Part shown: in pieces, positions 14,727 to 24,658 of the stretch
Layout of the letters: each line of letters begins with the position of its first letter
Position numbering within the stretch: the stretch's first letter is position 1
Source: Methanobrevibacter smithii ATCC 35061
Lineage (GTDB): Archaea > Methanobacteriota > Methanobacteria > Methanobacteriales > Methanobacteriaceae
NCBI RefSeq assembly: GCF_000016525.1
Contig: NC_009515.1
Coordinates: forward strand, 646,501-710,500
DNA: 64,000 nucleotides
Direction: 5' to 3'
Position numbers and translations under genes: made by a program
The notes under the pieces: model-generated
What the model saw: only the letters and a program-made list of their open reading frames with translations
The model's database searches: none
Told to the model about the DNA's origin: nothing

Positions 14727-17597
14727 CTATATCTTGTTCTCAAAATAGTCATACAGCTCATCTTTAACTGGAATATGGAGATTATATTTAATATTGACAA
14801 TCGGCAGGTCTCCGTCTTTGCTTTTGATAGTTGTCTGGATAAAATCAAATGGTTCGACCTGACCCATATAGTAGAAATCCTTACCTTCATCATCACTTTT
14901 CTTAATGAAGAGATGTATCTTTAAATTAGTTTTCTGATAATTTTTAATAGCAACTACTTCTTTACTATCTAATTTAAGCCTACTTCTAGTCATCCAGCTG
15001 AAAACATCCCTATTTACAAACTCATCTAGATACTTTGTACTATCTGAAATGTCTTCTTTTTTATCATAAGTTACAAAAATAGGGCAGGTATTGTGTTTTA
15101 CCCTATATCCATATAATGTGGAACTGTCATCATTTGGCCAGTTTAACAGTCTACAAACATCCCTTCTTGAATACTTGGCATATAATGTTAAATTTTCACC
15201 TTCAACTTGAGCATTATATTCTGTTTTATATTTAAGCAATCCATAATTAATTACATCCAAAATATGTTTTCTGTAAGTTTCATGAGATAAATATTTTTTA
15301 AAATCATTTGAAATTTGAAATTCATTCATAAAAGATAATTCAGGAAAATCTTTTTTATCTTTTTTACTGAAATCAAGATTTAAAACATCGATTGCACTTT
15401 CAATTGATTTTACATCATTTTGAATATCATATTCTGTTTTTAATAATTGTTCAATTGATTCAACTGAGAAATAACCATTATAAATTAAAGATTTTAAAAT
15501 CAGCAACTCATGAGGTCTTTTTCCACTGGCTAAGTTTTTGGATATGAATTTTAAAGATGAAATTTCCTCTTCTGAGAGATATTCGTCATAATCTTTATCT
15601 GCCTTTTTTAAAAATGAATAATAGCAATCCATTGCAGTATGATTTAAGATTAATAAAGGATCCATTTCTCCATTTTCATAGAAATCCAAAAGCATTGGAA
15701 TTCTGCCTAACTTAAACTTCAGATTATTGTATTTTTCTTTAAAAAGAGCTATTCTTGAAAATGAAGTGTTGTTTATAGAATTATAAATCCTCTTTTTAGA
15801 AACTTCATCAAAACTGATTGAAGAAGCTCCAGGAATTACTTTATTACCCTCCATCAGATAACGGCGAATATTATCCTTATCATAGGATCTGTCACCTGAA
15901 AGAGCTATCGGAATCATGAAATTGTTTTTATAATTTCCGATAAAATCCAGTATAACAACATAGTCTTTGTTTTTAAATTTCCTAAGGCCTCTTCCCAATT
16001 GCTGAATAAATATAATTGGAGACTGTGTTGGCCTTACAAGTAAAACCTGATTAATTTCAGGAATATCTACCCCTTCATTAAAAATATCAACTGTAAAAAT
16101 GTATTCCAACTTGTTTTTAGCCTCATCATTAGTCAGTCTGTAAATTGCATCCTCCCTTGTCTGCTGTGAATCATCACCTGTTAAGACAATTGCCGGATGG
16201 CCTCTTTTATTGAAAGCTTTTGAAAGTTCATTTGCTTCCTTTTTCCTGCTGCAAAATACCAAAGCTTTAATTCTCTCACCAGAATATCCGTAATAGGCTG
16301 ATTTTTCAAGTAAATAATTTACCCTGTCATCTGAAACCAACTGATTGAATTCTGTTGAATCATCAACAGTTTCTCCATCAATTTCCAAATCAGATATTCC
16401 AAAATAATGAAAAGGACATAACAAATCCTCTTCTAAAGCATCTTTAAGTCTGATTTCACATGCCAGATTATGGTCAAAGAGTTCATAAATATCAATACCG
16501 TCAGGCCTCTCAGGTGAAGCAGTCATTCCCAAACAGAATTCAGGTTCAAAATAATCCATGATTTTTTGATAGGAATAAGCACCTGCTTTATGGACCTCAT
16601 CAATCACAATATAATCAAATTCATCTTTTTTAAACTTGGTATAAACATCATCTTTAGACAATGTCTGAATTGTTGAGAATAAAAAGTTGGAATCATAGTC
16701 TTTAGAATTACCAGTCAGCAATCCGAAATCTTTTGTATTTTTAAAAACATTTTTATAAGCATTAATAGCCTGTTTGGCGATTTGTTCTCTGTGAACTACA
16801 AAAAGAAATTTTTTAGGATTGAAATCCTGAACAGCAAAAGCAGAAGCATAAGTTTTACCAGTACCCGTTGCGGATACCAGAAGTGCCTTTGATTCGCCAC
16901 TTTGAATTAAAGACCTTAAACTTTCCATAAAACCAACCTGCATAGAATTTGGGACCAAATCCTCAGAGCTGAGTTTTTTGTAGTTTTCTTTTAGCTTTGT
17001 AAAGTTCTTTTGAGAATCATATAACTTTTCATAAGCCGGAAGAACATCTTCCAGATTGTTTGCTTCATCCCACAAGTTGTTAAATTCAGATAATAAATTA
17101 TTCAACACTTCACCGTCATGTAAAGAGGTAAATTCAACATTCCACTCCTTGTTAACAGTTAAAGCGTTTAAAGTCAAATTAGAACTGCCTACAATACCTT
17201 TGTAGATATTGCCTTTTCTAAAAACATAACCTTTAGTATGAAAACCGTTCTTTTCCTGAGCATACAGCTTAACTTCAATGTTATCTAAAGACTGAAGCTT
17301 TTTTAAAGCTTTAGGATCTGTAAAATTAAGATAATCAGTTGTAAGAATCTTACCTTTAATACCTCTTTGTTCAAGTTCCAGAAAATCCTGTAAAAGAGGA
17401 GTCAAACCACCTAAAGTAATAAAAGCAGAGCTTATGAAAAATTCATCGCAATTCTGCAGTTCATCCTTAATGGAATTTAAAACCTTATGATTAAAGTTGT
17501 TTGAAAGGAATTTAGGTTTGAAATCATTTGCAGGATTATAAGTTTCATTGATAAAAGCAGTTTTAGCTCCCTCTAAAATATCATTCTGATTATCCAT
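14727..17597 (-). CDS. PLD-like / DEXH helicase / DUF3427 protein
   Basis: The 956-residue protein has three blocks. The first (about 1-190) is a phospholipase-D-like domain with HTKGYVF and GSSNLT. The second is a superfamily 2 helicase: motif I SATGTGKTYAS near 250, DEVHKAGA near 345, TASPERPDG near 370 and QLGRGLRK near 540. The third, C-terminal half (about 580-956) resembles DUF3427. Proteins of this architecture occur in defence islands and are thought to process foreign DNA; that role is inferred. The start (ATG at 17597, after GTGATTTTT) is embedded in the end of the NUDIX gene upstream, so the two are translationally coupled. Confidence 0.85.
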   Translation of the reverse strand: MDNQNDILEGAKTAFINETYNPANDFKPKFLSNNFNHKVLNSIKDELQNCDEFFISSAFITLGGLTPLLQDFLELEQRGIKGKILTTDYLNFTDPKALKKLQSLDNIEVKLYAQEKNGFHTKGYVFRKGNIYKGIVGSSNLTLNALTVNKEWNVEFTSLHDGEVLNNLLSEFNNLWDEANNLEDVLPAYEKLYDSQKNFTKLKENYKKLSSEDLVPNSMQVGFMESLRSLIQSGESKALLVSATGTGKTYASAFAVQDFNPKKFLFVVHREQIAKQAINAYKNVFKNTKDFGLLTGNSKDYDSNFLFSTIQTLSKDDVYTKFKKDEFDYIVIDEVHKAGAYSYQKIMDYFEPEFCLGMTASPERPDGIDIYELFDHNLACEIRLKDALEEDLLCPFHYFGISDLEIDGETVDDSTEFNQLVSDDRVNYLLEKSAYYGYSGERIKALVFCSRKKEANELSKAFNKRGHPAIVLTGDDSQQTREDAIYRLTNDEAKNKLEYIFTVDIFNEGVDIPEINQVLLVRPTQSPIIFIQQLGRGLRKFKNKDYVVILDFIGNYKNNFMIPIALSGDRSYDKDNIRRYLMEGNKVIPGASSISFDEVSKKRIYNSINNTSFSRIALFKEKYNNLKFKLGRIPMLLDFYENGEMDPLLILNHTAMDCYYSFLKKADKDYDEYLSEEEISSLKFISKNLASGKRPHELLILKSLIYNGYFSVESIEQLLKTEYDIQNDVKSIESAIDVLNLDFSKKDKKDFPELSFMNEFQISNDFKKYLSHETYRKHILDVINYGLLKYKTEYNAQVEGENLTLYAKYSRRDVCRLLNWPNDDSSTLYGYRVKHNTCPIFVTYDKKEDISDSTKYLDEFVNRDVFSWMTRSRLKLDSKEVVAIKNYQKTNLKIHLFIKKSDDEGKDFYYMGQVEPFDFIQTTIKSKDGDLPIVNIKYNLHIPVKDELYDYFENKI

Positions 17598-17602
17598 AAA
17601 AA

Positions 17603-17989
17603 TCACATGTTTTCTTTTAGATAATTAACTGCATCAATATCTGCCGGAAGCCAATTTAAAGTGTTTAATTCTTCTTTTGTAATCCATTTACCATCATTAT
17701 GCTCTAAAAGTTCGATTGAACCTTCCTTAATTGAACACATAAAACAGGACATGAATAAATAAAAGTTAGGATACTGATACTCAATATCTATGGCAAATTT
17801 ATCAACACTAATTTCAATGTTTAATTCTTCTTTAATTTCACGAACTAGGGCCTGCTCTTTGGTTTCACCTGATTCGATTTTTCCTCCCGGAAACTCCCAC
17901 ATGTTTATAAACTCGCCATATCCTCTTTTAGTAGCTAAAATTTTGTTTTCTTTTTGAATAATAGCTGCCACTACTTTTATTTCTTTCAT
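17603..17989 (-). CDS. NUDIX hydrolase (MutT-like)
   Basis: The 128-residue protein carries a complete NUDIX box, GGKIESGETKEQALVREI followed by KEELNI, at about residues 36-58. It starts KEIKVVAAIIQKENKILATKR, as in MutT/8-oxo-dGTP or CTP pyrophosphatases. It hydrolyses nucleoside diphosphate derivatives; the substrate is unknown. Its end lies against the start of the PLD-DEXH-DUF3427 gene, and pairing of a NUDIX enzyme with such helicases suggests a nucleotide-related step in the same system rather than general housekeeping. Confidence 0.88.
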   Translation of the reverse strand: MKEIKVVAAIIQKENKILATKRGYGEFINMWEFPGGKIESGETKEQALVREIKEELNIEISVDKFAIDIEYQYPNFYLFMSCFMCSIKEGSIELLEHNDGKWITKEELNTLNWLPADIDAVNYLKENM

Positions 17990-18005: not shown

Positions 18006-18467
18006 TTAAATGTCCAATTCCCCTAATTTTTTAATAATTCTATCATCTTCATTTAATTTTAATAATATAAGTCTTAATTTTTCAATGAATTCATCTCCCC
18101 CCTCCATATATTCAGTTTCTAAAATATCCAAACCCCCATTTGCATATTCCTCAGCAAATTTATAAATTTCAGGAGTATCTTCAGACAATATTTCAATACC
18201 ATCACTAGATTTAGTTATTGCTAATGCATTTATTAAAGCAGGCAAATCTTTACCAAAATTTTCTTTATTTATAAATAGTTGTCTAGATTCAATAGGTAAC
18301 CTACTACCCTGAGAATAACCATAAGCTAATGCTAATGCAAATATATCTTTTGAATGAAATTTATTCTCCTTTAAAGGACCATTACTCTCTAACAATTTGT
18401 TATATATTTTAGAAGTGTCTTTTTCACGAGACAATCTATTTGAAACTGTTTTATCTTTATTAACCAT
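18006..18467 (-). CDS. Small protein resembling Dnd-associated protein 4
   Basis: The product has about 153 residues when started at the ATG at 18467, inside the last codons of the DndD-like gene (8-base overlap). A longer start at 18494 has no ribosome-binding site. The central sequence KDIFALALAYGYSQGSRLPIE, the later PALINALAITKSSDG and EYANGGLDIL resemble a small family linked to DNA phosphorothioation (dnd) clusters. I make that link from memory of the motif, so it is tentative. The position right after a DndD-like ATPase supports it. No catalytic residues are evident, and an accessory or adaptor role is inferred. Confidence 0.6.
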   Translation of the reverse strand: MVNKDKTVSNRLSREKDTSKIYNKLLESNGPLKENKFHSKDIFALALAYGYSQGSRLPIESRQLFINKENFGKDLPALINALAITKSSDGIEILSEDTPEIYKFAEEYANGGLDILETEYMEGGDEFIEKLRLILLKLNEDDRIIKKLGELDI

Positions 18468-20436
18468 GTTTAACAATCTCCGTTTTATTTTCATAAGGTT
18501 TTAATTCATATTCATCAGCAATATTTTGCAACATATTTGCCCTAACATCATCAGTGTATTGACTATCCGTGAATAAGAATATTATCTGTTTATCAGAAGT
18601 ATACTCATGTAATCCTGAAATAAATTCAATACGTTTACTTTTATCTAATTTTTCCAAAGGAGCATCAATAATTAAAGGAATTTCAAAACCACTAAGACTA
18701 TGTAATGCCATCATAAAAGACAAAGCCAATAAATTCTCCTCACCATCGGATAAATCCCCAGGAGTAATTTTCTGACCAGTACTTTTTGTTATTACAATTT
18801 TATAATCATCTTTAATTGTAACATCCCTATATTTATCATATGCCCAATTGATACTCGTAAATTGTTTTCTAGTTTTATCATTGACTTTCTCACGAATATG
18901 TTTCTGAACATTATTATTTAAATCTGAAAGAATAGTAATTGCTTCTTCACAAAATTTAATTTTATTATTCAAAATCTTTAATTCACCCTCTAATTCTCCA
19001 GCCTCACTCCTTTTACGTTTAAGTTTTTCTATATCTTTTTTTAAGGTATTGATATCTGCACTTAAAGATTTATTCCTTTTACGCAAATCTTCAATGATTT
19101 TTTTATTTTTTTGAGATTGACGTTCATATTCTCTAACATCTTCAATATCAAACTCAGCCAATTCATCGGAAATTTGATTAATTTGAATATTAATCTCATT
19201 AATATTCTCTTCATTTTGTTTTATAGACCTCCTTAAAGATTCTATTTTTGGAAGATCTTTCAGTTTAGTTAAAACTTTCTTAAGATCATAATAATCTTCG
19301 TAAAATACTTCCTGTTTTATTTTACTAGTATTATTTAATCTTTTTTTAAGTTCAGTTACACACTCAGGATGGTCTTCTAGTTTAACACCACAAATACAAA
19401 ATCCATCTTCCAAAATATCATTCAATAAATCTCTTTCAATTTGAGGAGGTGCAGTTTTTTTCTTCCGTGCATCATCAGCAATATTAATTGAATCAACTAA
19501 TTCATCAAACAACACCGCAATTGGGAATAATTCTAAAATCAATTTTTCATAATTTTTACGATCTTCTTTAATATTTTGTTTAAGTTTTTTTTCCATTGAT
19601 TCTTTATTTTTTCTTTTTTGGGTTAACTCGTTAACATAACCTGAATCAACTTGTTTCAATTTTTCAACACATTTATTAACATTTCGAATAGCAATATCAA
19701 TTTTATTATGATTATCTTTAATTTCAGATTCTTTATGTTGTTGTTCCTGCATTTTTTCATTGATTAGTTTATTATAATTTACACTACCTTTAGGCTTTTT
19801 CTTGTTAAATCTCTTATTAATTGAATCAGATGTTTTAACCAAATGATCATAAACTTTATCAATTAAACCCACTTGAGAAATTTGCTCTATAGATGTTTTT
19901 AAACTCAATTCAGATTCATTTTTAAAATAATTGGACAAAGTAGCTCCATTAAAAAAGAAATATTGGAACATTTCTTTAGGGATTTTATTATTAATTGCAT
20001 TTTGTGCAACACCATCCTCCAAAATATCTTTATCTGTTTCATCAACAATCAAATGGTCCGCAAATGCATCCCCCCATTTTCCATTACCCCATTTTTGAAA
20101 AGATAACGATCTATAAATTGAAAAATATTTCTTTTTTTCATCTTCAAATGAATAAAATCTAATTTTAACTTCAACTTTAACTTCATTTATACTATTTTCA
20201 TTTGATTCTAATTCTTTAGCTGCTCTAAGATTATACAATGGTTCTGATTTGTTTCTTACATCATGAAGCTCCTCCCCATACAAACACCAAGTTAATGCAT
20301 TAACCAATGAAGTTTTACCACTCCCATTATCTGCCAAAATTATAGTTAAATTTTCCAAATCATTAAACCCAAAATCAATTTTCTGTGTTCCATAAAATGG
20401 CCTAAAATTAGTTATTTCAATAGAATCTAAGTACAT
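18460..20436 (-). CDS. DndD-like SMC/Rad50-type ATPase
   Basis: The 658-residue protein is an SMC-like ATPase with split nucleotide-binding halves. At the N-terminus it has SIEITNFRPFYG and Walker A LADNGSGKTSLVNALTWCLYG (about 33-53). The middle is coiled coil (about 215-560) interrupted by a cysteine-containing turn FCICGVKLEDHPEC near 348-361 that could be a zinc hook. The C-terminus has the signature LSDGEENLLALSFM and Walker B PLIIDAPLEKLD. The YG-x-E-start and CLYG motif match DndD of DNA phosphorothioation systems better than Rad50. No DndA, DndC or DndE gene is visible, so sulphur modification is not supported here. Confidence 0.85.
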   Translation of the reverse strand: MYLDSIEITNFRPFYGTQKIDFGFNDLENLTIILADNGSGKTSLVNALTWCLYGEELHDVRNKSEPLYNLRAAKELESNENSINEVKVEVKIRFYSFEDEKKKYFSIYRSLSFQKWGNGKWGDAFADHLIVDETDKDILEDGVAQNAINNKIPKEMFQYFFFNGATLSNYFKNESELSLKTSIEQISQVGLIDKVYDHLVKTSDSINKRFNKKKPKGSVNYNKLINEKMQEQQHKESEIKDNHNKIDIAIRNVNKCVEKLKQVDSGYVNELTQKRKNKESMEKKLKQNIKEDRKNYEKLILELFPIAVLFDELVDSINIADDARKKKTAPPQIERDLLNDILEDGFCICGVKLEDHPECVTELKKRLNNTSKIKQEVFYEDYYDLKKVLTKLKDLPKIESLRRSIKQNEENINEINIQINQISDELAEFDIEDVREYERQSQKNKKIIEDLRKRNKSLSADINTLKKDIEKLKRKRSEAGELEGELKILNNKIKFCEEAITILSDLNNNVQKHIREKVNDKTRKQFTSINWAYDKYRDVTIKDDYKIVITKSTGQKITPGDLSDGEENLLALSFMMALHSLSGFEIPLIIDAPLEKLDKSKRIEFISGLHEYTSDKQIIFLFTDSQYTDDVRANMLQNIADEYELKPYENKTEIVKHG

Positions 20437-20442
20437 TATTAA

Positions 20443-20610
20443 TCATTCCCCCATAACATTTTCAATCATGTTTTCATAACTTGCTTTATAATGCATCTTT
20501 TCAGGATTTCTTAATTCATATAATATTGCAGAAATGAAAAAATTTTTTAAATTTTCATCAAAATCAGCTTCCCTAATATAATCAATTATTTCTAAATTTA
20601 TTTTAGTCAT
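20443..20610 (-). CDS. 55-residue protein between helicase and DndD-like ATPase
   Basis: The ATG at 20610 overlaps the TGA of the upstream helicase gene (ATGA arrangement) and is preceded by GGGAGGAAATCAC. The stop lies 6 bases before the next start. This tight packing argues that the short frame is a real gene. The product, MTKINLEIIDYIREADFDEN to ENVMGE, is acidic, predicted helical and soluble, with no family I recognise. It may be a bridging or regulatory subunit of the surrounding system. Confidence 0.6.
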   Translation of the reverse strand: MTKINLEIIDYIREADFDENLKNFFISAILYELRNPEKMHYKASYENMIENVMGE

Positions 20611-22631
20611 GTGATTTCCTCCCATTTTTTTAAGAATTTTTGGCTACATTCTGAAGAATTATCTGCCAAGTCAGCATATTCATCATAACGTTTCTGTTCG
20701 TTTTTAAAAATTGTTTTAACAGAATTCGATTCACCTTTAAGTTTTGGAAAAATTATTAAATCGTAAATATTAGCTTTTGATTTGCCCGGACTTTTTCTTA
20801 ATACTCTTCCCCTTCTTTGAATATGTTGTCTAGAATTTAATGTACTTGCCATTAAAAATGCTGTTTGAGTAGATGGAACATCCACTCCTTCATCCAAACA
20901 TTTAATAGCAACTAAAGACTGGTAGTAACCCTTAGAAAACAATTCTAAAATGCGGTCTCTTTCAGATTTACCATTAATTTTTTTAGTGCTTTCTTCACCA
21001 GTAAATTTATGATTGGAAATATCAAATTCATCCAAAATATTCTGAACTTTAGGCAATTGTTTGCCAGTACAATAAATAATTAAGTCCTTAATATCTTCTT
21101 GATCCTTCAAAAAAGTATGTAAATGAGCAAATTTATCTTCAGCATTATTAATTACATCTCTTCTCTTAATAAGTAATGTATTTAACCGTTTTTCATCCAA
21201 CAATGTTTTTTTCTTTTTTTGTAAAATAATGCTAATTTTATAAGTATAATCTTTATATAACTCCATTTCTTCATTATTTAAATCAACAAAAATAGGATGG
21301 TAATTGTAACGAGTTAAAAACCCTTTTTGAATAGCATTTTCCAAATCATAATCATATATTATGCCATTAAAATAATCATAGACCAAATCAGTTCTTTCAA
21401 AATCATCTTCAATTTCAGGAGTTGCACTTAAACCTAATCTATGATTATATTTATTCAACAAACTCTTCCTATACTCAAAGGAACCTATGCCATGAACTTC
21501 ATCTACAATTACTAAACTATCCCCCTCAAAAAAATCAATTTTTTTTCTAAACTTTTCACTAGCAAATGTTTTAAATGTGGTAAAAACTACAACCTGATTA
21601 TTTGAATTAAAAGAAGACTCCAAATCCCCAATTAAACCCAATAATTCAGAAGACCATTTATTATTATCTCCAGATGCAATAAGAATACTTCCATTAAAAC
21701 CAAATTCTTTCAAATTACTTTCCCATTGACTTATTAAATGTTTTTGAGGACATACAATGATAGTTAAAAGATTATTTTTTTTATTTCGTAAATAATCCCA
21801 ACAGGATAATGCAGTGAATGTTTTTCCCGTACCTGTAGCCATGCTAAAGATACCGCGATAATTATTATTTATCCAATTTTCAACAGCTTCTTCTTGATAA
21901 TCACGCAATTTTGGTTTAGAGTCTAATTTTAAATTAAAAAGTTCATCTTTAGAATTGGGAGCTATTTCAATTAACTTCTTTTTTGTTGCATCAGGAACAT
22001 CAAACAGCTCCAAAGATGGGTCGTTACCCTCCCAAAAATTTTCAAAATCTTTTTTATCATTTTCCATAAATTCCGGATTTTTCCAACTTTTAAATACTTT
22101 TAATGATTCAATATTATTTTTCCATCCGAAAGCAGTTTCATTTACAGACCCATCAAATAATATTGAATCATCCAATTCATCATACATTATCCCAATTTTA
22201 GAATGTATCATTCCAGATTCATAAAAACCATCCTTTTTACGATTAACCCCAATTTTAATTTCCAAATAATTATTAGCCACCATCCATCCCAATACTTTAA
22301 CATGATTCTTTACTATTTCATCTTCAATAGAATCATAATCTTTTAAAAAATTAATATCAATAATATTTTTCAAATCATCAGAATTGTTAATAGATTCCAA
22401 ATCAGCAACATTCAATTTAGCGCCGCAAATAAGGCGCATATGCCCATTATTTTTTATAAATTTATCAATACCTCTTGCAGCAATCGCCAAACTAGTGGAA
22501 TTAAAAAATCCAGATATACGGTCATATTTTATTGCCTCAGATAATACCAAATTATAAAAATTATTTACAATATCATCATGTGCAGAATTATAACTTGGAC
22601 TCACCTCCGAATCAATATCTTTAAATACCAT
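20607..22631 (-). CDS. PLD-like/SF2 helicase resembling Dnd-linked restriction helicases
   Basis: The 674-residue protein starts with MVFKDIDSEVSPSYNSAHDD and a PLD-like N-terminal domain (about 1-200; AIKYDRISGFFNSTSLAIAA, IHSKIGIMYDE, DGSVNETAFGW). An SF2 helicase follows: ATGTGKTFTALSC near 260, DEVHGIG near 345, LSATPEI near 370, and QRRGRVLRKSPGK near 608. This order matches helicase nucleases clustered with dnd genes that restrict unmodified DNA; the family name is from memory. A longer frame from 22703 adds only a hydrophobic, unlikely leader, so the ATG at 22631 is preferred. It is the first gene of a tightly packed four-gene operon. Confidence 0.8.
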   Translation of the reverse strand: MVFKDIDSEVSPSYNSAHDDIVNNFYNLVLSEAIKYDRISGFFNSTSLAIAARGIDKFIKNNGHMRLICGAKLNVADLESINNSDDLKNIIDINFLKDYDSIEDEIVKNHVKVLGWMVANNYLEIKIGVNRKKDGFYESGMIHSKIGIMYDELDDSILFDGSVNETAFGWKNNIESLKVFKSWKNPEFMENDKKDFENFWEGNDPSLELFDVPDATKKKLIEIAPNSKDELFNLKLDSKPKLRDYQEEAVENWINNNYRGIFSMATGTGKTFTALSCWDYLRNKKNNLLTIIVCPQKHLISQWESNLKEFGFNGSILIASGDNNKWSSELLGLIGDLESSFNSNNQVVVFTTFKTFASEKFRKKIDFFEGDSLVIVDEVHGIGSFEYRKSLLNKYNHRLGLSATPEIEDDFERTDLVYDYFNGIIYDYDLENAIQKGFLTRYNYHPIFVDLNNEEMELYKDYTYKISIILQKKKKTLLDEKRLNTLLIKRRDVINNAEDKFAHLHTFLKDQEDIKDLIIYCTGKQLPKVQNILDEFDISNHKFTGEESTKKINGKSERDRILELFSKGYYQSLVAIKCLDEGVDVPSTQTAFLMASTLNSRQHIQRRGRVLRKSPGKSKANIYDLIIFPKLKGESNSVKTIFKNEQKRYDEYADLADNSSECSQKFLKKWEEIT

Positions 22632-23137
22632 ATAAATACCACATAAATAAATTAGAAAGAAAACAATATTCCTTACTCGAATCAATTTTTCAAATTGAAA
22701 CAATTTAATATTATTTTATTAACTATTACAATATATAGTTTACTAAATAAATTTTAAGCACATAAAAATAAATTTTACAAATAATATGAACAAAATACTA
22801 ATTAAAACAAAAATAAATTAATTTTTAAAATATTTAATAAAAATTTTTTATAAAGATAAACAAACAAAAAAGTAATTCTATAAACACAAGTTTAACACAT
22901 GTTTGAATTTGAATACAAACTCCCACAACATTCAAACAATATTAACTAAAAATAACTTACAATATGAAAAACATCCAATATTTTCCCAATTTTAATAAAA
23001 AAATATTTAATAAAAAATATTGATCCAAAAAATGTTTGTCTTTAAAATACCTCAAAATTAACATCATTGTTTAAAAAAAATTTTAAATAGGATTAACACC
23101 AAAACATTATTAAAAATAATTATTTGGTGAAATTTTT
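22632..23137. other. Long AT-rich intergenic region between divergent accessory genes
   Basis: About 500 bases separate the divergent helicase and radical SAM genes. I see no plausible reading frame or RNA. The sequence is unusually poor in G and C, even for this genome, and contains repeated TTTAATAAAAAA-type tracts, for example near 22830-22850 and 22995-23020. GGTGA lies just before the radical SAM start. Confidence 0.5.
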
Positions 23138-24658
23138 ATGGCTTTTGAAGATTGGATAACAAAGGATGTTAAAAATGTTTTATTAGTCGAACCTAACTTT
23201 CCTATCCCTAATAAAAGTAGAAACCATGCTAATTTTTTACCAATAGGCTTATTGAAGATAGCAGCATATCTTAGAAACAAATCAATAAACATAAAATTAG
23301 TAAGACATGACAAAGAAAATTTAAAACAAACAACACTATTTCCAAAAAAGAATCAAGAATTTAAACCTGATTTAATATGTGTAACTTCTATTTTTACTTA
23401 TTGGTCAAAATATGTTAAAAATACAGTATCTTACTATAAATCATTATATAAAAATATCCCAGTAATAGTTGGTGGAATATATGCCTCATTAATGCCAGAA
23501 CATTGTAAAAATTATACAAAATGTGATGATGTTATTTTAGGACCCATATATGAAGCAGAAAAATTATACCCCGCATATGATCTTGTTGATGTGGATTACC
23601 AAATAGTTCACACAAGTAGAGGTTGTGTAAGACAATGTAAATTCTGTGGAACATACATCATAGAACCTGAATGGAAATGTAAAAAAAGCATAAAAAAAGA
23701 AATAAAAAAGAAAAAAATAATTTTTTACGATAATAATCTTCTAGCTAACCCCTATATTAAAAACATATTAAATGAATTAATTGAACTAAAACAAAACCAT
23801 GAAATTAGTTATGTAGAATCCCAATCTGGATTTGATGGTAGAATATTACGAAAACATCCGGAAATAGCTAAAATGTTAAAAAAAGCAGGATTTAAAAATC
23901 CAAAAATTGCATGGGATTATAATCTAAAACAAGCTCCAAAAATAAAAGAACAAATAGATTTATTAATATCCGGAGGATTTAAAGCAAAAGAAATCTCCAT
24001 ATTTATGATATATAATTATGATTTAGATTACAATGAAATGGAAAAAAAAAGAGTGCAATGTGCTAAATGGGGAGTTCAAATAACTGATTGTCGTTACAGA
24101 CCGTTAGATCAAACATTTGACGAATACAGTCCCTATAAAACAAAAGGACAAACTAATAAAGATTACTACATCCATCCAAATTGGACAGATAAAGAAATTC
24201 GTAAATTTAGAAGAAATATAAGGCGTCATAATATATGTATGCGTCACGAGGTAGATTACCATTCCTCAATTCTTGAACGAAAAAAAATACCTCAAGAATT
24301 AGCTCAAAAATATAGAGAAATGGATTATAACGAAGTTAAACAATATTTGCCCGACGCTTGGACCCCTGTTAAATCACATGACCTTAATGAAAAAGATTAT
24401 TTTAAAATAAGTGATACTTTAACACATATTAAAAAACCTGAAAAAACTCAAAAAAATCAAACATTACTAAATCACGATTATTGTCCTCCAAAACAAAATA
24501 TTATTCAAATAAATTATTTAACCACTTACAATAAAACAAACTCCCAAATAGTAGAAAATAAAAATAAAAAAGATAACATTGATGAATGCATAAAATATAT
24601 TATTAATACAAAACAAAAAAATGAAATTGAAATTCCATACAGAATAAATGCTAAATAA
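23138..24658 (+). CDS. Radical SAM protein with cobalamin-binding-like N-terminal domain
   Basis: The 506-residue protein has a Rossmann-like N-terminal region (about 10-145) resembling the B12-binding domain of radical SAM enzymes. The radical SAM cluster motif CVRQCKFC lies near residues 165-172 in HTSRGCVRQCKFCG, with a DDN-like strand (IIFYDNNLLANP) downstream. The last 150 residues are lysine-rich and unrecognised (HIKKPEKTQKNQTLLNHDYC). No substrate gene or partner is adjacent; the nearest neighbour is the divergent Dnd-like operon. Codon use is dominated by A/T-ending codons, like the neighbouring island, which suggests shared origin by transfer. Confidence 0.8.
   Translation: MAFEDWITKDVKNVLLVEPNFPIPNKSRNHANFLPIGLLKIAAYLRNKSINIKLVRHDKENLKQTTLFPKKNQEFKPDLICVTSIFTYWSKYVKNTVSYYKSLYKNIPVIVGGIYASLMPEHCKNYTKCDDVILGPIYEAEKLYPAYDLVDVDYQIVHTSRGCVRQCKFCGTYIIEPEWKCKKSIKKEIKKKKIIFYDNNLLANPYIKNILNELIELKQNHEISYVESQSGFDGRILRKHPEIAKMLKKAGFKNPKIAWDYNLKQAPKIKEQIDLLISGGFKAKEISIFMIYNYDLDYNEMEKKRVQCAKWGVQITDCRYRPLDQTFDEYSPYKTKGQTNKDYYIHPNWTDKEIRKFRRNIRRHNICMRHEVDYHSSILERKKIPQELAQKYREMDYNEVKQYLPDAWTPVKSHDLNEKDYFKISDTLTHIKKPEKTQKNQTLLNHDYCPPKQNIIQINYLTTYNKTNSQIVENKNKKDNIDECIKYIINTKQKNEIEIPYRINAK

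Follow-up and report, generated by a model that had tools for sequence, protein, structure and literature searches.

A PbeABCD module of Methanobrevibacter smithii adjoins a conserved B12-binding radical SAM gene, its likely modification partner

Results and discussion

Genes at the locus

We analysed a stretch of 64,000 bp (the window) of the Methanobrevibacter smithii ATCC 35061 genome, corresponding to positions 646501-710500 of a complete, single contig of 1,853,160 bp. An ORF check of the window confirms all four genes of an operon on the minus strand (18006-22631), packed as tightly as a preliminary description had it: PbeA and PbeB overlap by 4 bp, a 6-bp gap lies between PbeB and PbeC, and PbeC and PbeD overlap by 8 bp. 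Two further genes follow pbeD on the same strand, and a radical SAM gene (rSAM) is found divergently at 23138-24658; the preliminary description mentioned none of these three. The features are:

14727..17606, minus strand: PLD + SF2 helicase + DUF3427 protein (PADLOC mREase_IV), overlapping the Nudix gene
17603..17989, minus strand: Nudix hydrolase (PADLOC PDC-S07), 16 bp after pbeD
18006..18467, minus strand: pbeD, DndE cognate with two ribbon-helix-helix units, 153 aa
18460..20436, minus strand: pbeC, ABC ATPase of the DndD/CxC clade, 658 aa
19390..19398, minus strand: CxC zinc-hook motif of PbeC (residues 347-349, CIC), from a motif scan
20443..20610, minus strand: pbeB, small protein of 55 aa, assigned by position and length
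20607..22631, minus strand: pbeA, single-HKD (PLD) nuclease and SF2 helicase, 674 aa
22137..22205, minus strand: HKD catalytic segment of PbeA (residues 143-165), from conservation in homologues
22632..23137, no strand: divergent intergenic region between pbeA and rSAM, 506 bp
23138..24658, plus strand: rSAM, B12-binding-domain radical SAM protein of 506 aa, divergent from pbeA, the proposed DNA-modification partner
23624..23647, plus strand: radical SAM cluster motif CVRQCKFC (CX3CX2C, residues 163-170), from the alignment of rSAM homologues

Identity of the four-gene operon

PbeA matches the PADLOC PbeA profile over residues 9-665 (1.5e-225) and also TIGR04095 (8e-126, which is below the cut-off of that model). 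Its HKD signature (HxK...D/GSxN, here HSKIGIMYD/GSVN) is intact, as are the SF2 motifs ATGTGKT, DEVH, SATP and QRRGRVLR. Residues H143, K145, D151, G161, S162, N164 and E165 are invariant in 18 homologues, and homologous PbeA proteins back the ATG at 22631 as start codon. PbeC matches its PADLOC counterpart over nearly the full length (9.3e-93), with the best DndD model behind at 6e-54, and scores 155.9 bits against TIGR03185, below the cut-off of 245.85. The ABC signature LSDGE is intact alongside the CxC motif, the latter being the defining mark of the PbeC-type ATPase clade (PMC10853773). PbeD matches TIGR04062 (dnd_assoc_4, NCBIfam) at 2.7e-15, again below cut-off; its AlphaFold model (pLDDT 79) has the order S-H-H-S-H-H, and all of its 12 best PDB matches by fold are DndE structures (4lrv, 7x4e, 5wtu), at TM values of at most 0.65 by target and with weak E-values. 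PbeB has no match in the profile libraries searched (PADLOC, NCBIfam, Pfam), and phmmer finds similar ORFs in three other loci (L023, L024, L031).

With an HKD-SF2 PbeA, a CxC PbeC, a DndE-like double ribbon-helix-helix PbeD and a PbeB recognised by position and size alone, the four genes are PbeA-PbeB-PbeC-PbeD, the published archaeal and bacterial antiviral module (CxC ABC-ATPase/DndE system); taken alone, they represent a system that is already known. The families proposed earlier (Dnd-linked restriction helicases for PbeA, DndD with a cysteine hook for PbeC, Dnd-associated protein 4 for PbeD) turn out to be good guesses by PADLOC and NCBIfam profiles, and the suggestion of a defence system built on a helicase and a DndD-type sensor was right. 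The preliminary description had named co-occurrence of the four families in a named system as a result that would refute it; they do co-occur, in PbeABCD.

Haloterrigena jeotgali A29 has the same four genes in the same order as part of DndCDEA-PbeABCD, and mark-dependent protection against virus was shown for this haloarchaeal phosphorothioate (PT) system only (Xiong et al. 2019, PMC6459918). PbeA, PbeC and PbeD of the window are recognisable by profile or fold, but the cassette has a B12-binding radical SAM gene beside it and not DndCDEA. Xiong et al. describe a replication block and no cleavage, and leave open the role and partner of solitary PbeABCD cassettes (PMC6459918); Rakesh, Aravind and Krishnan (2024) argue that the HKD domain cleaves (PMC10853773). 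The CxC ABC-ATPase/DndE systems of the latter study share with the window the CxC ATPase, the DndE cognate, the HKD-SF2 protein and the small protein, whereas modification there is ascribed to PT genes or to cytosine methylases, and a radical SAM partner does not appear in the main text (PMC10853773).

The absence of DndC near the operon, noted before, extends to the complete genome, in which dndC has no match. On this ground the locus is not a PT-based Dnd system, which would comprise DndC and other PT-installing genes. DndE has no match in the genome either, a weak negative, as the search matched no control genome.

The radical SAM gene

The protein encoded by rSAM combines a B12-binding domain (PF02310, 5e-12, above cut-off) with a radical SAM domain (PF04055, 1e-4 and 23.0 bits, below the cut-off of 29.5) that carries the CX3CX2C motif, which is the make-up of a cobalamin-dependent radical SAM enzyme. 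None of the NCBIfam families is matched above its cut-off. Across 34 homologues the three cysteines of the motif never vary, and C318 and C367 hardly do. A motif scan did not find the canonical cobalamin DxHxxG motif, which is also missing from many class B radical SAM enzymes. In the AlphaFold model 344 of the 506 residues have a pLDDT above 90, and each of its ten best PDB hits by fold is a cobalamin-dependent radical SAM methylase (TsrM, CysS, TokK), though at a modest TM of ~0.45. These enzymes likewise have B12-binding and radical SAM domains and the radical SAM cysteine motif; they act, however, on small-molecule substrates, and a search of PDB sequences with the rSAM profile gave no match.

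The locus might be taken for a decayed, non-functional remnant, as pbe is broken in some relatives (pbeA is split or partial in G157 and G123). The four window genes and rSAM are nevertheless of full length with intact catalytic motifs, and the set is kept in related lineages, which makes decay highly improbable.

Linkage of rSAM and pbe

Among 152 genomes of the phylum, 23 carry rSAM and 38 carry pbeA. Both are present in 21 of the 23 rSAM genomes (Fisher p = 1.8e-13). The other two are G034, where the locus runs into a contig end, and G062, where rSAM has a C5 methylase and a Sau3AI-like enzyme in its vicinity. Over 23 measured loci, the distance from rSAM to the nearest pbe gene ranges from a 41-bp overlap to 565 bp, with a median of 60 bp. 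Altogether rSAM adjoins pbe in more than 20 loci, several of them with overlapping genes, across many genera and reaching a second phylum: homologues are pbe neighbours in other Methanobrevibacter-type genomes and also in G058, which is an archaeon from a different phylum. Its position varies (before pbeA, after pbeD or divergent), and divergent layouts with 520-565 bp spacing are also seen in G122, G135 and G166. Such variation in order and orientation is expected if selection maintains the linkage, and not from recent common ancestry alone.

Judged by this conserved neighbourhood, rSAM is a member of the module and likely its modification partner. The link is conserved and apparently undescribed so far: the papers found on radical SAM enzymes with Pbe, Dnd or DISARM do not mention it (a search that covered few subscription journals and no supplements). 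The operon had also been proposed as an orphan half of a Dnd system. Since the operon has a conserved partner gene, we no longer favour this reading; with a radical SAM gene 506 bp away that shares its conserved neighbourhood with the module, it is probably wrong.

The same linkage bears on the possibility that PbeABCD pairs with a methylase encoded elsewhere in the genome, or needs no mark at all, and that rSAM is a passenger of the defence island. The literature reports many solitary cassettes (320 of 553 pbeAC are without dndCD; PMC6459918), rSAM lies away from pbe in a few genomes, and the methylase search of the genome was limited to the D12 and C5 families. That search, however, gave no D12 match in the complete genome and for C5 one partial match far from the locus (507872-508528) plus a weaker short one. 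Considering also the 21 of 23 genomes, gaps that are mostly below 0.6 kb, the several overlaps and the second phylum, we find a passenger quite improbable.

No rSAM of this family was found in 115 genomes of one other archaeal phylum. Plasmids yield only 23-26% matches to the G058 copy, on alphaproteobacterial plasmids, and phage records yield one 28% match (Marinitoga camini virus 1). In G399 the copies have metabolic genes as neighbours, and around the G294 copy no restriction gene was recognised. A distant radical SAM relative (26%) on the Rhizobium plasmid NC_012854 (L157:4384-11188) is lined up with genes for a DEAD helicase, a ParB-N and a DGQHR-domain protein, an arrangement that also resembles an island for defence or modification.

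Alternation with known modification genes

Most pbe loci without rSAM contain a DpnM/Dam-class D12 methylase instead: 24 loci have rSAM only, 10 have D12 only, 2 have both and 4 have neither (p = 6e-5, or p = 6e-4 with contig-broken loci excluded, the significance of both being overstated, since loci are treated as independent). When mapped on the PbeA tree, at least three switches between the rSAM and D12 states are seen. The best PDB matches of this methylase are DpnM (2.4e-47) and Dam, both GATC enzymes.

Two further loci have a PT-like gene set before pbeABCD, one in a methanogen-phylum genome (L142:1905-9038, G064) and one in an Acholeplasmatales bacterium (L033:2965-9997), the latter being the one Acholeplasmatales locus obtained in a PbeA scan of genome contigs. 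Read from the sequences, both sets comprise a PP-loop protein, a DUF4007-like protein, a large ATPase and a cysteine desulfurase. Overall, the rSAM family is found with known modification genes of restriction systems and can take their place, as is expected of an R-M-like modification component, and the exceptions carry both. As several loci contain rSAM alongside a D12 or C5 methylase, rSAM may add to methylation instead of replacing it.

Related rSAM genes in other restriction contexts

The rSAM copies of G279 and G260, two genomes of the G058 phylum, are 47-51% identical to that of the window and directly follow DrmA-DrmB-DrmC and a fourth gene of ~870 aa. This fourth gene has a DrmE C-terminal domain in G260; in G279 it is DrmE-type by position and length alone. 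The two DISARM operons (DrmA, DrmB, DrmC, DrmE-type) that end in the rSAM family are:

L106:905-11046, in G279
L107:7720-17533, in G260

DISARM typically encodes a methyltransferase (PMC9142583), and no methylase was found among the genes scanned in these two operons. Like the window, DISARM couples a helicase and a PLD nuclease to a DNA-modifying gene, a slot that the rSAM family fills in G279 and G260; the window, on the other hand, is without DrmA/B, and DISARM normally uses the DrmMI or DrmMII methylases. In G270 (L108:915-8474) the gene immediately preceding rSAM encodes a DruE-like Druantia helicase that has a PLD domain at its C-terminus, and C5 methylase and Sau3AI-type genes are close to rSAM in G062, G128, G132 and G071. 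On viral contigs a C5 methylase is near rSAM in 7 of 14 loci (L181, L182, L183, L186, L187, L188, L189), which fits a use in self-protection. The C5 gene of L046 was confirmed by Pfam.

These contexts also help to judge whether rSAM could serve the defence module as an effector or regulator and not as a DNA modifier, for example by making a viperin-like nucleotide or by modifying PbeB, another protein or RNA. Adjacency by itself names no substrate. Small peptides and nucleotides are frequent substrates of radical SAM enzymes, to which the antiviral viperins belong. Nonetheless, PbeB is also found in PT- and D12-coupled loci without rSAM, the family alternates with DNA methylases and adjoins Sau3AI-type and DISARM genes, its fold is that of B12 methylases, and the viral copies near C5 methylases fit self-protection and not an antiviral effector. 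An effector role therefore seems unlikely to us.

A proposed self-mark

The reading that we favour, at a probability of roughly 60%, is that the window holds a PbeABCD module coupled to a B12-type radical SAM enzyme that makes a self-mark on DNA; here we infer the DNA substrate, the chemistry, the target and the defence activity of this locus. PbeC-PbeD (the ABC ATPase and the DndE-like double ribbon-helix-helix protein) would scan DNA for a short target, and PbeA (HKD nuclease and SF2 translocase) with PbeB would block or cut DNA that is without the self-mark. The host DNA would be marked by rSAM, in a slot that is held elsewhere by DndCDEA (phosphorothioate) or a Dam/DpnM-type methylase. Its likeliest reaction would be cobalamin-dependent C-methylation of a base or sugar.

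More tentatively, and with slightly less than even confidence, we suggest that these B12-dependent radical SAM enzymes, a family not recognised until now, install a DNA mark of a new kind (not N6A, N4C, 5mC or phosphorothioate). PbeABCD, DISARM and further restriction systems of methanogens and other archaea would use this mark as their self-signal, and viruses would have copied it for protection. If true, radical SAM/cobalamin chemistry would join the known ways of marking DNA, a new modified nucleoside would be predicted in gut and rumen methanogens and in some viruses, and PbeABCD, DISARM and possibly Druantia would be linked by a common modification enzyme. For the solitary PbeABCD the locus provides a concrete, testable partner, apparently in a culturable human-gut methanogen, and the rSAM-pbe pair could also explain barriers to transforming methanogens.

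The leading candidate for the target of the proposed mark is GATC, given that archaeal Pbe-linked PT is placed at this site (PMC6459918) and that the swapped partners (DpnM/Dam and Sau3AI types) act on it too. No palindromic 4-mer of the window is more depleted than GATC (observed/expected 0.44), which is depleted in viral contigs carrying rSAM as well. Over the Methanobacteriaceae samples (the window and L158-L175) the ratio is ~0.33-0.58, independent of pbe or rSAM. We rejected this depletion as evidence for the system, as relatives without pbe or rSAM are equally depleted.

Other genes around pbe loci

The PLD-helicase-DUF3427 protein matches PDLC03658 (2.9e-240) and PF11907 (6e-93). Together with the Nudix gene it is also found downstream of pbe in L024, L026, L029-L032, L052, L053, L144 and L153, and the pair may form an accessory unit. 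Taken separately, the Nudix hydrolase is a possible accessory of pbe, and the PLD-helicase-DUF3427 protein is possibly an accessory or a separate type IV enzyme. The window has no gene between pbeD and the Nudix gene corresponding to the repeat proteins (AP2-like by eye) that are encoded there in three loci (L024:2167-3927, L026:4888-6771, L031:3734-5503). A second pbeB-C-D (or an entire pbeABCD) set stands beside the first in L023, L026, L090, L092, L099 and L155; by analogy with DndDE, this second set could serve modification.
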